Origin: Mesorhizobium sp. LMG 17147 | Lineage (GTDB): Bacteria; Pseudomonadota; Alphaproteobacteria; Rhizobiales; Rhizobiaceae | Length of the DNA stretch: 64,000 nt | Reading direction: 5' to 3' | Assembly: GCF_024297145.1 (NCBI RefSeq) | Contig: NZ_JANCTC010000007.1 | Location: 124,001-188,000 of the forward strand | In this document: one piece after another, positions 57,991 to 64,000 of the stretch | Layout of the letters: every line of letters begins with the position of its first letter | Position numbering within the stretch: the stretch's first letter is position 1 | The notes under the pieces: generated by a model | The model's database searches: none | What the model was told of the DNA's origin: nothing | Seen by the model: the letters and a program-made list of their open reading frames with translations, nothing else | Translations under genes and position numbers: made by a program

Positions 57991-59733
57991 TCATAAGCCG
58001 ATGCCGCGCTTCTTTCCCAGGCTCCAATCCACGCCCCCCCTATCTGAACACACGACCCCGGTAACTTGATTGCCCAATCGCTTTTCGAGCGACGGCGACC
58101 AGGGCACCAGCTTGAATTCGAGTCCATTATCGATCATTGCGAGCCGGCCTGAAGCCAGCAAGAAACGCCGCCGGTAAATCCCAGCCACATGATTGCCGTT
58201 GGCAGCCTTCGTGAATGACAGGCCCGTCTCGGCGGCGATGCGGGCACCAAGCGATTCCACCTCATGATCGTGTAGTGTATCGATCAGATTGCGGGCAAGA
58301 ATGACGCGCTGTCCCTCGCGCCTGGCCAGATCGCGGCTGACAAGGTGATCTACCCGATCTTGCAGTGCCTGTCTTACGTCCTTGCCAAAGCCGCCGTCAC
58401 CGAATTCGGCGGGCTCGCGTGCAACGAGTTGGCGATCGAGCCAAGTCGCGCCGGAAGCATGGACCTGCTGTTCGATTGAGAGGTCGGAGCGGACGGCGAG
58501 CGTGACCCGGCCACCGCCATTTGCACTCGCATGGCGACACAACTCCACGACCGAGCCCGGGTCGGAATCTCCTGCCGCATCAGGATCATGGAAGCGAATG
58601 TGGTGCGTGCGTCCATCGATGCCATCGACGATGGCATAGGCCGCGCCGCGCCGTTCGTCATCAAGGCCGCGTTCGAGCAGTCGGCCGATCACGGGCGCAT
58701 CAATTTTTTCGGCGGCCAGCACGTAGTCGACTGTCCCCTTTTCTAGCCCATGCACGGTGAGACTGCGGTGCATGCGCTTGATGATGTCGCCGCGTTCACC
58801 GAGGGCGCGCAAAGTGGCCTCGGCCTCTTCGACCACCATCCATTGGCCGGGACGGATCTCGTTCGCGAGACCCAGGCACTCCAGTTGCCGCAGCCGGCCG
58901 ACTTTGAGCCCAAGGAACTGGTCGGGATGGCGATCAGGGTGTGGCGCGAGATCAATGATACCATGACGGTCGGCGTCACGAACAAGCTGGCGATCGAGCT
59001 GCGTCCAGCGCTCATTGTCGACTTGGTGCTCGATGGCCTGGCGGATGTCGAGGTCGGTGCGGAGCCCAAGCGTCTGGGTGAGAATGTCGCTCGCCCGATC
59101 GCGCATGCCTTGGCGGATGTAGTCGCGCGAGATGACAAGACTCTCGCCATCGTCGGCAACGCCGCGAACGAGGATATGAACGTGCGGATGTTTGGTGTTC
59201 CAGTGATCGACGGCTATCCAGTCGAGCCTCGTGCCGAGGTCGCGCTCGATGTCGACCATCAGGTCACGAGTGAAGTTCTTGAGGTCGCCGAGCTCCATTG
59301 CGTCGTCCGGTGAAACGATGAAACGGAAGTGATGCCGATCGTCCTTGCAGCGATCGCAGAAGGCGTCATGATCTGCCTCTTTGGTCTCAGGGCCGAACAT
59401 CCTGGCCTTCTCACCATCACGTGTAACACCTTCGCGGCGAAGATATTTGAGATGGGTGGCGAGTGGCGCAGACCCTCTGAACTGCCGCACCACACGGGTC
59501 TTGACGACGGCGCCGCGTGAGCGGTCAGAGATGAGGCGACTGGCGCGGATGCTCGCTGACCTGCCGCGGCCAAACGTTGAAGCTCGCGGGGAGGTGATCC
59601 GACCCTCGCGCGTAAGGTGACCGCCGGCGCGCTGTGTGGCCGCAAGAGCCTGGAAGATGAAGGGTCGTGCGCGCTGGCCGGCGCGGGAGCGGATACGACC
59701 GGGGCGGACGCGAAAGGTATCGTCACGCTTCAT
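57991..59733 (-). CDS. rlxS: Conjugative relaxase, DUF3363 type (RlxS-like)
   Basis: 580 residues from ATG 59733; no clear ribosome-binding site. Basic N-terminus; the relaxase His cluster is HPHVHILVRG at about 185, preceded by the tyrosine-containing ATHLKYLRREGVTRDG and by HHFRFIVSPDDA. The C-terminal half is of the DUF3363 type. Such relaxases nick oriT in rhizobial ICEs, as RlxS does in ICEMlSymR7A. It is the last gene of the leftward conjugation cluster, and an inverted repeat lies just upstream. Confidence 0.88.
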   Translation of the reverse strand: MKRDDTFRVRPGRIRSRAGQRARPFIFQALAATQRAGGHLTREGRITSPRASTFGRGRSASIRASRLISDRSRGAVVKTRVVRQFRGSAPLATHLKYLRREGVTRDGEKARMFGPETKEADHDAFCDRCKDDRHHFRFIVSPDDAMELGDLKNFTRDLMVDIERDLGTRLDWIAVDHWNTKHPHVHILVRGVADDGESLVISRDYIRQGMRDRASDILTQTLGLRTDLDIRQAIEHQVDNERWTQLDRQLVRDADRHGIIDLAPHPDRHPDQFLGLKVGRLRQLECLGLANEIRPGQWMVVEEAEATLRALGERGDIIKRMHRSLTVHGLEKGTVDYVLAAEKIDAPVIGRLLERGLDDERRGAAYAIVDGIDGRTHHIRFHDPDAAGDSDPGSVVELCRHASANGGGRVTLAVRSDLSIEQQVHASGATWLDRQLVAREPAEFGDGGFGKDVRQALQDRVDHLVSRDLARREGQRVILARNLIDTLHDHEVESLGARIAAETGLSFTKAANGNHVAGIYRRRFLLASGRLAMIDNGLEFKLVPWSPSLEKRLGNQVTGVVCSDRGGVDWSLGKKRGIGL

Positions 59734-59740
59734 GCTAGGC

Positions 59741-59876
59741 GGCCACGAGGTGCGGTTTCCATTGAAAGACTGAAAAAATGGGGATAGCGCACATCGCTGA
59801 TTGTGGCAGCACATCGCGAAATGAGTCGAAAATTGTAAGGAAAACAATCGGCCGAACCGAGCCGCACCTCGCGGCC
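59741..59876. other. Candidate oriT region
   Basis: GGCCACGAGGTGCGG at 59741-59755 and its inverted counterpart CCGCACCTCGCGGCC at 59862-59876 match at 14 of 15 bases, 106 bp apart. Between them are direct repeats GCACATCGC at 59789-59797 and 59809-59817 (20-bp spacing) and a small inverted repeat ATTGT/ACAAT at 59832-59848. The stretch is AT-richer than its flanks and directly precedes the relaxase gene, where oriT often lies. Confidence 0.5.
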
Positions 59877-59977: not shown

Positions 59978-60763
59978 TCATCGCGATATGGCTAAAGAGG
60001 GCTGAGCGAATAGGCCGGAAACAGCGTGGTTGGATTGGAAATCGGTTTCACTCCGCCGTGGCTCGATCGCGGTCAGGTCCGCAACAGGGTGGCCCATTGG
60101 CGACTGCATCGCTGACGAATGAATCGCCGCAAAGATCGTCTCGGCATAACCATTGCCATCCGATACAGCGGCGTTCCGAATGTCATGGGGATGCGCAAAG
60201 ATCGTTGCACGGAGTGAGCTGGCTCTGCCCCTTCTTTGCCGCGGGCGCCGCGGACTGAGAACTGCACCATCGAGCAGCGGCGCGAGTTTCCTAACGTAGT
60301 CGACCGTCTCGCGTGGGAGCGGACGGCCGGTCGAGAGATGTTCCGTGTACCGACCAGGACCGGCATTGTAAGCGGCAAGAAAGCCGCTGCGCCCGAAGCT
60401 GTCGAGCATTTCGCGAAGATATGCTGCACCTGCAAGAATGTTGTCACGCGGTCGATAGGGATCGTCACCGAGACGGTATTTGATGCGCAGTTCTTCCCAC
60501 GTCGCCGGCATGATCTGCATCAAGCCCATTGCGCCCTTGCTTGAAAGCGCACGAACATCGCCGACGCTCTCAACATGCATGACGCCGCGCAGCAACCGCT
60601 CTGGAATCGCGAAGCGCTTTGACGCTTCCCGGATATGCCGCGACCACGGGCCAGCCGACAAGATCGTCGACTCGGAGTGCGCCGGCCGTTCACCGGAGGA
60701 AGCCGCTGCACCAGTTTCGGGCGCCACGAAGCCGAGCATGACACATGCGGCAAACGTCGTCAT
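59978..60763 (-). CDS. Lytic transglycosylase, conjugation-type (TrbN/VirB1-like)
   Basis: 261 residues from ATG 60763, chosen because a signal peptide follows (MTTFAACVMLGFVAPETGAA); the frame is open to 61195. The SLT domain has catalytic Glu in MHVESVGDVRALSSKGAMGL, then MQIMPATWEEL and AGAAYLREMLDSFG, LAAYNAGPGRY. It would open peptidoglycan for the transfer channel. Between DUF736 and the relaxase, as in related ICEs. Confidence 0.87.
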   Translation of the reverse strand: MTTFAACVMLGFVAPETGAAASSGERPAHSESTILSAGPWSRHIREASKRFAIPERLLRGVMHVESVGDVRALSSKGAMGLMQIMPATWEELRIKYRLGDDPYRPRDNILAGAAYLREMLDSFGRSGFLAAYNAGPGRYTEHLSTGRPLPRETVDYVRKLAPLLDGAVLSPRRPRQRRGRASSLRATIFAHPHDIRNAAVSDGNGYAETIFAAIHSSAMQSPMGHPVADLTAIEPRRSETDFQSNHAVSGLFAQPSLAISR

Positions 60764-61025
60764 GCCTCTGTGGACTGCATCCCGCAGACCGCAGAACCGA
60801 TGCACCGCCGGCCTGCGACGGTGTTCGCTTCCGTTAAGGGCAGGGGCTCGCCGATCGAACCGGCTTTGCCAAAACTGTGATGAGATCGGTGTCCGGAGCC
60901 ACAGGCAAGTGTCCGGCCCCCTCTGGGCTGCGTCGCGGGCGATCGGGTCGAAGGGTTTGACCGGCACGCAATGGATCAAAAGGGTTGGCGAGAAAGATTC
61001 GTCGAAGGGCTCCAGAAGCATCTGT

Positions 61026-61352
61026 TCAGCCTCGCCCGTCGCGCTTCGAGGATCGGTTCCAGTGCAGGCTCCAGACGCTGTTCTCTGCATCGAACCGGAA
61101 CAGCTTGGCGCGGATCGGCTGCGTAAAGGACGGGTCGTCAATTGAGACGGAGCGGTAATCCCCCGCCTTGTCTCCGGCGCGGTCCCAAGCCGCACCGACC
61201 GCCATCCCTTCGCAATAGATCAGATAGTCGGGCGCGTTTTCGGTTTTTGATTTCTCGGCAGGCAGAATGGCAATCTTCGCCTCGATTGTTAGCGTGGAAA
61301 GATTGCCGAAGAAGCCGTCATCATTGCGCGTGAAGGTTCCGATCTGGGTCAT
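61026..61352 (-). CDS. DUF736 family protein
   Basis: 108 residues. MTQIGTFTRNDDGFFGNLST is the DUF736 signature, followed by DYLIYCEGMAVGAAWDRAG and a YRSVSIDDPSFTQPIRAKLF motif. AAGGAG precedes the ATG. DUF736 genes are near-constant companions of traF and relaxase genes in alphaproteobacterial ICEs and plasmids; function unknown. Confidence 0.93.
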   Translation of the reverse strand: MTQIGTFTRNDDGFFGNLSTLTIEAKIAILPAEKSKTENAPDYLIYCEGMAVGAAWDRAGDKAGDYRSVSIDDPSFTQPIRAKLFRFDAENSVWSLHWNRSSKRDGRG

Positions 61353-61958: not shown

Positions 61959-62488
61959 GACTCGATCCCGGGGCGCAGCAGGCAAGTTTTATGACGCTGG
62001 GCCGTGTATCGGCTCGGCTGCTCGCGTGGGGCTATCCGGCTGTGGACATGGCGCCGATTACGCGGCGACATGAACGTCAGGGTTTGCTGCTGTTTCGCCG
62101 CTACCACGCGCCGCAGTTGCAATCTCCTGGCTTGCGCGTGGATGGTTTGCGACGCAGCCCAGACCAGGATGGCAGCGTTCCAAATCGCTGCTATGCCGTG
62201 CACACTTGCCGCCTCAACGCAGGTCGATTCTTCGCCCGCATGAGAATGGATCGGTCTCAGGTGGCGGGATTTCACCAACAAGACGAGTTGCCACGCCACA
62301 ACGTCCTGCGTGCCGGGTGGAGGGAAGCCGGATGAGGGGACATGAGGCAGGGCAAATTGCTGCTGAACGGTCTCGCGATACTGCATTTCGGTGCGCCACA
62401 GATCAGGAGCTGCGGTCGCGCCTGCCGACATAGGCGGGCGCGCGGGCTGCATGGGGTTTTGCCGGCGGAACATAGGTCGCGTTGGCAT
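61955..62488 (-). pseudogene. ORF with a DUF2840-like C-terminus, probably decayed
   Basis: Only the last 35 residues look conserved: RHVHSRI and YTAQRHKTCLLR match the end of DUF2840 proteins, which normally lie directly before traF and overlap it as here (ATGA). The upstream part resembles no DUF2840 sequence, overlaps the excisionase gene by 86 bases, and has poor composition. Likely a remnant after a rearrangement; it could also be a novel fusion. Confidence 0.4.
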
Positions 62489-62693
62489 CGCTGGTGGAGG
62501 TGCGTGCGCCCAGATCTATCCAAGCGTGCAGGTCGTTGATGTCGTAGAGAACGCGCCCGCCGACCTTTCGGTATTTTGGGCCGGTGCCGTAGGTCCGGTG
62601 CTTTTCGAGTGTGCGGGCGCAGAGCCCGACGATGTTTGCTGCCTCCTTCGTGCGCAAATACTTTTGGGGCGCGTCCGCGGGACCCTTCGACAT
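62403..62693 (-). CDS. rdfS: Excisionase-like HTH protein (RdfS-like)
   Basis: 96 residues from ATG 62693 (GGAG upstream). A winged HTH of the MerR/excisionase class: KYLRTKEAANIVGLCARTLE, KHRTYGTGPKYRKVGGRVLY, DINDLHAWIDLGARTSTSD. This matches the recombination directionality factor RdfS type of mesorhizobial ICEs, which drives excision. It follows the FseA-like gene, which activates rdfS in ICEMlSymR7A. Identity as RdfS rests on context and motif class. Confidence 0.7.
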   Translation of the reverse strand: MSKGPADAPQKYLRTKEAANIVGLCARTLEKHRTYGTGPKYRKVGGRVLYDINDLHAWIDLGARTSTSDANATYVPPAKPHAARAPAYVGRRDRSS

Positions 62694-62807
62694 CGCTCGA
62701 TCTCCATTCGGTTCTGCTGTCGTCCTGGCCTGCCGGGACGCGCGAAGTGGACCATGATCGAAATGAGGAAAGGCGAGGGAGGGCAAAGATTGGGGGGTGC
62801 GTTTTTG

Positions 62808-63603
62808 CTACCCCGAAGAAGGACTTCGGCGGCCGGACTTTTCGCTGCGGTTGTGGGGGTAGAAGAGAAGATCGCGATAGCCGCCGGCGACTAAAAAAGC
62901 TGCACGGCGTAAGATAGCTCGGACCTTGTGGCGGAGATGATGATCACGCCAATCTCGCGGCACAATCGGCTCTTGCGAGAACAGCACCTCCGCGAGCTGA
63001 CGATAGGTTGCACCCGTGCGGTGACCATCATGTGCGCGTAAATTGAGGATATGCCTGGTCTTGGTCTGTTGCGGCAGTGCGCCGTAGGATGGACCGGCTG
63101 CCCGGCCGTTCAGTGCGCGCCAGAACCGGCGCGCTGCATCGAGCCGCGTCTCGAATGCAGCGTCGAGCGGCAGAAGGATAGCGTTGAATTCACCGGCGCG
63201 GTCGTTAGCGACGAGATGACTTTTCCCAATTAAGGTAGACCAAATAATGTGAAGGCCTTCGTCCTGCGGCCAAACGCTGGCTCCGCCTAGGCTGGAAGGT
63301 CGAACTGTCTGATCGGATGCAGATACCCGCATGGCCCGGAGCACGCGCGGCGAGGCCTGTTCCGTCCAGATGATATTGTCAGCTTTCGGAACTCCGGCAG
63401 CGGCAGTTTTGAAATCGCGCGCCCCAACGGGCGGCGAGATCGGGCTGACCGGCAGGTTCTCCAGAACCAGCGGGTTGCGATGCAAGCTGGCTGCACTCTG
63501 CCACGAATTCGTCATTCCGGATCAGATACTCGGCAGCGAACTCCGTGGCCTGGTAGCTGCACATATGTGCATACGCCGCCGGATCGGTCCAATCGCCTTG
63601 CAC
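62808..63603 (-). CDS. fseA: FseA-like activator (DUF6499 + DUF2285), split by a +1 frameshift
   Basis: The first ORF starts at GTG 63603 (AGGAACA upstream) and encodes a DUF6499 domain (GDWTDPAAYAHMCSYQATEF ... LAARWGARF), stopping at 63379. The second ORF, in the +1 frame, encodes a DUF2285 domain (DFKTAAAGVPKADNIIWTEQ ... YRQLAEVLFSQEP ... VRAILRRAAFLVAGGYRDLL) to 62808. At TTTC (63414-63411) a Phe-tRNA could slip from UUU to UUC, giving a fused protein of about 264 residues. FseA of ICEMlSymR7A is made by programmed +1 frameshifting from the same pair of domains. Confidence 0.78.
63558..63571. promoter_or_regulatory. 14-bp palindrome TGCACATATGTGCA
   Basis: Perfect palindrome inside the DUF6499 coding part of the FseA-like gene (codons for YAHMCSY). 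It resembles a shortened tra-box-like dyad. It may be coincidental, as it is constrained by coding. Confidence 0.25.
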
Positions 63604-63731: not shown

Positions 63732-64000
63732 TCAGTGCGGAGCGCCGCCGGCGAGAAGATATCGGTAGCCGCTGGTCGTCATCCATCGCGCGCGGGCAAG
63801 ATGGGTCTCCCACGACCGGAACGCTCGTTCCGGCTCCTGCTCCGGGTCTATATGCAAGACGATCCTGGCCACCTCTCGCCAATCGGCATCTTCGGCTGCC
63901 GCGTCAAGCAGGCGAATATAGGTGAGCAGACGCTCCTCGTCATAGCCGGTCAGGACCGGTGCATCCGGCGCAATGTCGGCGACATCAGGATCGAGCAGCG
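63732..64000 (-). CDS. DUF2285-only protein, QseM-like, 5' end outside window
   Basis: About 88 codons are visible, ending at TGA 63732-63734. The protein has the short rhizobial DUF2285-type layout: VLTGYDEERLLTYIRLLDAA, ADWREVARIVLHIDP, HLARARWMTTSGYRYLLAGG. It is acidic (17 Asp/Glu against 9 Arg in the visible part). QseM, the FseA antiactivator of ICEMlSymR7A, is an acidic DUF2285-only protein, and this gene is directly upstream of the FseA-like gene. The start lies to the right of the window. Confidence 0.65.
   Translation of the reverse strand, partial: LLDPDVADIAPDAPVLTGYDEERLLTYIRLLDAAAEDADWREVARIVLHIDPEQEPERAFRSWETHLARARWMTTSGYRYLLAGGAPH

Follow-up and report, generated by a model that had tools for sequence, protein, structure and literature searches.

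The window, that is, the whole stretch of 64,000 nucleotides analyzed here, carries two overlapping open reading frames (ORFs) which together resemble the gene of the transfer activator FseA. The ORFs, the elements at their junction and the neighboring genes are as follows.

63379-63603, minus strand: zero-frame ORF with the DUF6499 domain (PF20109); GTG start, 74 amino acids, stop codon 10 codons past the slip codon
63515-62808, minus strand: second ORF with the DUF2285 domain (PF10074); ATG start, 235 amino acids, overlapping the DUF6499 ORF
63411-63414, minus strand: putative slip site UUU-C; Phe codon UUU at 63414-63412, followed by C, which gives UUC in the +1 frame
63415-63417, minus strand: CGA Arg codon directly 5' of the slip codon, CGA in 15 of 15 members of the close group; putative stimulator
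63421-63426, minus strand: UGGGGC (Trp-Gly), a Shine-Dalgarno (SD)-like element weaker than the family consensus UGGGGG
62808-63410, minus strand: +1-frame part of FseA, comprising a middle region and the DUF2285 (PF10074) DNA-binding domain; 200 residues and stop codon
62811-63603, minus strand: whole fseA-like coding region, with a 264-residue product if TTTC is read as one Phe step
63732-64000, minus strand: QseM-like gene of a lone DUF2285 domain, antiactivator homologue; 92 amino acids, first codons past the window edge, which the gene overruns by 10 bases (L204:2733-3011)
62403-62693, minus strand: RdfS-like helix-turn-helix (HTH) gene (HTH_17, 9.5e-8; the scan used the longer frame 62403-62747); expected FseA target
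62782-62809, minus strand: candidate FseA box, a putative 28 bp element of inverted hexamers (AGCAAA, 16 bp, TTTGCC) lying over the fseA stop codon
61398-61985, minus strand: S26 signal peptidase gene, TraF-like by position
59978-61195, minus strand: lytic transglycosylase (SLT) gene
57991-59847, minus strand: relaxase gene with DUF3363, RlxS-like by position

The DUF6499 half matches PF20109 (6.3e-13; 49.3 bits, with a Pfam cut-off of 23.8), and the DUF2285 half matches PF10074 above the Pfam cut-off (6e-30). Fused in the +1 relation, the two halves form one 264-residue protein with both domains in order, whose DUF2285 part has a net charge of +12 over its last 120 residues (a residue count, with no surface computed). 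A profile of 17 fused proteins, built on an alignment of P0001 and 16 of the 22 fused proteins made, matches RovC (6xz5) with 5.6e-15, the best stretch lying in the DUF2285 part, and the solved QseM (7uqt) weakly, with 0.028; the single window protein alone reaches only 0.28 against RovC. RovC, a Yersinia protein, is by this profile match a related transcription factor, and its role is reportedly to promote the expression of type VI secretion genes. At 0.01, NCBIfam yielded no model for the fused protein or for either the QseM-like or the RdfS-like frame, and no match at 1e-5 was found in the phage collection. In the helix motif, which reads AAEYLIRN in the window and AWEFLRRN in FseA proteins, the Glu, the Leu, the second Arg and the Asn are kept, while the Trp and the first Arg are lost; this Trp is described as part of the FseA protein core (PMC10359603). 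The form AAEYL[IAL]RN occurs in six of the six rows of the window's clade in alignment A1.

The next gene upstream of fseA, in the same orientation, is the QseM-like one; its product, with a net charge of -7, matches the solved QseM antiactivator (7uqt) with 4.9e-19. A small HTH gene (HTH_3, 7.5e-13) is placed opposite to it, as QseC stands beside qseM in ICEMlSymR7A (PMC8627217). Downstream of fseA follow the HTH_17 gene, labelled RdfS-like by domain and position only, and the genes of the S26 signal peptidase, the lytic transglycosylase and the DUF3363/Relaxase protein, a set similar to rdfS-traF-msi107-rlxS, which quorum sensing induces in ICEMcSym1271 (PMC5882170). No LuxI or LuxR genes were found beside the window fseA, the nearest pair on the same contig being about 98 kb off. 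The assignment of an FseA-like transfer activator in the preliminary description is supported by the two domain matches and by the adjoining QseM homologue and RdfS-like gene, and the locus is, as judged from its sequence, an fseA homologue on a mobile element of a soil bacterium related to Mesorhizobium.

The DUF2285 frame, as read from the sequence, is +1 relative to the DUF6499 frame, and the coordinates, strand and frames agree with the earlier claim that the DUF6499 ORF (63603-63379) overlaps a DUF2285 ORF extending to 62808 and offset by exactly +1. Frame 0 contains the triplet TTT at 63414-63412, and the +1 frame contains TTC at 63413-63411; the frame-0 codon following UUU is CAA. The conserved WGARF ending had been placed directly before TTTC, which needs correction, as the F of WGARF is itself encoded by the TTT of TTTC.

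The first report of fseA frameshifting is said to be a study from 2015. Programmed +1 frameshifting of fseA (msi172-msi171) is established in ICEMlSymR7A, about 61% of 4709 homologues need a frameshift (PMC10359603), and the subject has been reviewed (PMC5009743). Compared by description, the window and the fseA of ICEMlSymR7A from Mesorhizobium japonicum R7A share the +1-split DUF6499-DUF2285 arrangement with its junction at the end of DUF6499, and a QseM homologue and rdfS-traF-rlxS-like genes are present in both (PMC10359603, PMC5882170). They differ in that fseA lies behind traI2 there, whereas it stands here directly between the qseM homologue and the rdfS-like gene, and in that the window has the SD-like GGGGC and the helix AAEYLIRN in place of AWEFLRRN. 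We regard the locus as a further good example of the known fseA frameshifting and not as a new phenomenon, the conserved CGA before the slip codon being a possible addition to what is known.

In all of the 14 close relatives, cga-TTTC stands at the junction with an open +1 frame behind it. These relatives come from named genomes (12 Mesorhizobium, one Aminobacter and one Chelativorans), and two of them are 96% identical to the window in the second ORF. Except for two nearly identical strains, the comparisons (12 of 14) give a pS of about 0.36 to 0.72, so that CGA and TTT have been kept where other synonymous sites have changed; the preferred Phe codon is TTC (74%). Three named plasmid relatives have TTTC at the junction as well (3/3), with CGA before it in two of them. 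The motif alone is not specific, as the bare TGGGGNNNNCGATTTC occurs three times in the genome; the other two matches are at G000:C11:631096-631111 and G000:C63:219657-219672.

A first survey of 196 loci gave 184 that are split in the +1 relation, two that are split otherwise, three in one frame and seven unclassified, the last consisting of six in which no DUF2285 was found and one without DUF6499. TTT[C/T] after the Trp motif was located in 183 of the 186 split loci (169 TTTC and 14 TTTT), and two of the three remaining ones show it by eye. The TTTT site of the 14 loci also permits re-pairing. The survey was then enlarged to 254 loci, 10 of them unclassifiable. Over both surveys, genomes were drawn from the class, family, order and phylum (19, 30, 30 and 24 new loci, respectively), and 134 further places were chosen by hand from longer lists, among the matches listed. 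In this enlarged set, which consists mostly of high-scoring Alphaproteobacterial matches and is phylogenetically not independent, TTT[C/T] follows the Trp motif in 195 of the 200 distinct split loci. Four of the other five (L005, L116, L125 and L254) have another frame relation and were left out of the site test, and the fifth, L180, is without the site. L180 is split +1 with the junction WRLRCRP and no Phe slip codon, and is either decayed or an instance of another kind of shift site.

Uninterrupted homologues, which had been named as the case that would speak against a frameshift here, do exist as single ORFs at 36 of 236 distinct classified loci, although none is found among the 14 close relatives and nearly all of those compared keep the same spacing (see below). 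The ratio of 36 to 200 is not a prevalence, because some of the places were picked for a long frame, i.e., for the single-ORF type. UUU-C after CGA is the commonest form among the surveyed loci, and the earlier wording of a natural variant does not really fit the window, in which only the SD-like GGGGC is weaker than usual.

The spacing across the junction gives the size of the shift. Read in +1, 116 of 129 nonredundant loci have a distance of 20 residues between the WG Trp and the conserved Trp that follows, as does the window; the distance is 17 in six and takes other values in three, and none was found in four. In single-ORF homologues with the WG motif the distance is 20 in 29 and 16 in two out of 31, a count that joins 21 peptides evaluated by hand (19 with 20 and two with 16) with a script run on the 36 single-ORF loci (30 with 20, one with 16 and five without a WG found). 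Among the exceptions of the script, the WG of L200 is probably due to chance, L291 was measured on a second copy, and the script overlooked L023 (16) and L277 (20). Since the +1 spacing equals the single-ORF spacing, one base is skipped and no residue is gained or lost; a recoding event that adds or removes a residue would break the 20-residue spacing. The preliminary description had proposed TTTC as the slip site of a programmed +1 frameshift, to be checked by the conservation of TTTC at the junctions of homologues. Comparison supports both proposals, with cga-TTTC in 14 of 14 relatives, TTT[C/T] at 195 of 200 split loci and the 20-residue spacing, and the frameshift agrees with the published FseA biology (PMC10359603).

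The codons before the slip codon are strongly skewed toward rare synonymous ones. In the nonredundant set, CGA accounts for 82 of 91 Arg codons at this position, with a background of 10% elsewhere in the same genes, GGG for 91 of 126 Gly codons (background 12%), and TTG for 69 of 111 Leu codons (background 10%); p-values for these biases treat the sequences as independent. Single-ORF homologues, which are few and distant sequences, are without the bias (CGA 0 of 12 Arg, GGG 3 of 30 Gly). CGA and GGGGG are not significantly associated within a site (Fisher p 0.11). The contrast between split and single-ORF forms suggests that CGA acts as a weak-pairing stimulator. CGA precedes the slip codon in 119 of 171 sites, of which, judged by residues, up to five may be picks of a TTT upstream of the true site. 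Such picks occurred at L003, where the true slip site is TGGGGTGTTCTGTTTC, and at L315, where it is WGLQF with CAG before TTTC.

A UGGGGG stretch upstream of the slip site has been noted in print as similar to a ribosome-binding site (PMC10359603). Over the set, the mean anti-SD pairing energy is -8.6 kcal/mol vs -6.3 kcal/mol for synonymous shuffles. It is weak, -5.2 kcal/mol, in the window and in 7 of the 14 close relatives, with CGA-TTTC intact in all 15, and the efficiency of frameshifting in the window may therefore be low. An upstream SD-like sequence and a re-pairing +1 slip are also features of prfB (RF2), where the SD precedes the shift codon by about 3 nt and the A site holds a stop codon. 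Here, however, the distance is 7 nt (the family consensus has 6) and no stop codon is in the A site; a prfB-like mechanism of SD plus stop codon was rejected on these two grounds.

It is highly probable, in view of the comparative evidence, that the window fseA is made by a +1 frameshift at CGA-UUU-C that yields a 264-residue activator. Translation would begin at GTG 63603 and proceed through the DUF6499 domain, and most ribosomes would stop 10 codons past UUU, giving the 74-residue DUF6499 protein. A minority would slip by +1 at CGA-UUU-C (63417-63411), insert Phe once, and resume reading at AAA 63410 in the DUF2285 frame. In the putative slip, tRNA-Phe would re-pair from UUU to UUC, aided by pausing over GGGG and by weak hold of the tRNA on CGA (I-A wobble), which would slow or loosen the ribosome. 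The activator would then induce the nearby rdfS-like and relaxase genes. Their presumed target promoter may contain the candidate FseA box at 62809-62782, which was matched by geometry alone to the 28 bp inverted hexamers of the rdfS promoter (PMC10359603); it lies farther from the start codon than published, and one hexamer varies in some relatives. The neighboring QseM homologue would hold the 264-residue activator in check. QseM binds the DUF6499 part of FseA in two-hybrid assays (PMC10359603), and one may speculate that the unshifted lone DUF6499 protein also draws QseM away.

The predicted junction peptide, ...WGARFKTAAAGVPK, would be the same if tRNA-Phe did not re-pair and UUC beside CGA was instead entered out of frame, and the resulting proteins would be identical. 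We regard this as unlikely, even though the preference for CGA in split loci (82 of 91 Arg codons vs a background of 10%, and 0 of 12 in single-ORF forms) speaks in its favor, and CGA is among the few codons able to replace the shift codon GCG at Ty3 (PMC5009743). Of 200 distinct split loci, 195 retain UUU with C or T after it, whereas CGA is missing from about a third of the sites (119 of 171 have it). The near-invariance of UUU-Y, which CGA does not share, favors re-pairing of tRNA-Phe as the core step and CGA as its stimulator.

We have also considered that two separate proteins are made with no frameshift at all, DUF6499 from GTG 63603 and DUF2285 from ATG 63515 or later. An ATG at 63515 is available to the second ORF, and the three plasmid relatives inspected are annotated with two genes here; automatic annotation splits fseA in this manner. 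The constraint on the two frames makes separate initiation very improbable. In the 99 nt that precede the slip, compared without gaps and anchored at the slip, all 12 comparisons in which both frames gave a value show a lower pN/pS for frame 0 than for the +1 frame, with medians of 0.52 vs 1.27; for the two nearest strains the frame-0 value is incalculable, there being too few changes, and the +1 values are low (0.0 and 0.35). This ratio was chosen since counts of differences per codon position proved uninformative near the slip. With constraint upstream of the slip thus weaker in the +1 frame than in frame 0, ATG 63515 is probably not a real start and is probably unused. Separate initiation would, in addition, leave the conserved CGA-TTTC, the codon bias and the fixed spacing unexplained.

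A decayed gene or a one-base sequencing error, suggested by the annotation as two partial genes and by the existence of single-ORF homologues, is the least probable reading, as the same arrangement recurs in separate assemblies of 14 of 14 relatives and 184 of 196 first-survey loci are split +1, and as both fseA parts look constrained (median pN/pS of 0.35 and 0.42 in 14 comparisons). Decay, separate initiation and assembly error are accordingly rejected on the relatives, the frame constraint and the spacing. Nor is the arrangement a product of chance, given the Pfam match of each half, the relatives that keep the site, and the constraint on both parts.

For the frameshift at CGA-UUU-C, the tRNA complement bears on the role of CGA. 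Among the 45 identified of 46 tRNA matches there is one tRNA-Phe (GAA), and the tRNA-Arg genes have the anticodons ACG, CCG, CCT and TCT. No tRNA-Arg TCG (UCG) was found among these 45, and CGA is therefore expected to be decoded by the ACG (inosine) tRNA, as it is in most bacteria (PMC3711424). In yeast lacking guard factors, +1 shifting occurs with CGA in the P site (PMC6301793). A tentative proposal, which we consider possible though somewhat less than an even chance, is that the fseA site is composite: CGA, read only by tRNA-Arg(ICG), would be kept beside UUU-C as a weak-pairing stimulator, which would make the site a programmed and widely conserved bacterial equivalent of the yeast CGA-dependent +1 frameshifting. 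A weak inosine-wobble codon stands next to the shift in both (PMC5009743, PMC6301793); Ty3, however, is eukaryotic and re-pairing of its peptidyl-tRNA is unrealistic, while at UUU-C re-pairing is possible and the site is conserved. If the proposal is true, the rate of frameshifting, and hence gene transfer, would depend on the inosine modification of tRNA-Arg. In the literature covered on FseA, CGA and frameshifting, which does not extend to the 2015 primary report, no mention of the CGA codon of fseA was found; two passages on CGA in the review (PMC5009743) deal with other matters than fseA.

The present set, as an independent comparative one, supports the notion that many Alphaproteobacterial mobile elements produce their transfer switch via a +1 frameshift at one conserved signal. 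The conservation of CGA and its contrast with the single-ORF forms make it possible to test simply and directly what causes the ribosome to slip.

Several further observations concern the surroundings of fseA in the survey loci. The immediate upstream neighbor of fseA is a QseM-like gene in the same orientation in 92 of 129 nonredundant loci (122 of 183); in the 183 loci such a gene is on the opposite strand in 22 and was not found in 38. An RdfS-like gene lies within 400 nt downstream of fseA in 131 of 183. Between the qseM-like gene and fseA, GTGATGC and its reverse complement GCATCAC recur, perhaps as an operator, and single 8-mers of this type are present in up to 18 of 92 intergenic stretches; the corresponding stretch of the window has a different inverted repeat, TCGGCA...TGCCGA. 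The genome contains two more fseA-like loci. The one on contig C12 (L003) is also split +1, with CTG before TTTC, and the one on contig C4 (L005, L318, L328) lies beside LuxI and LuxR genes, has an in-frame TAG and is apparently decayed.
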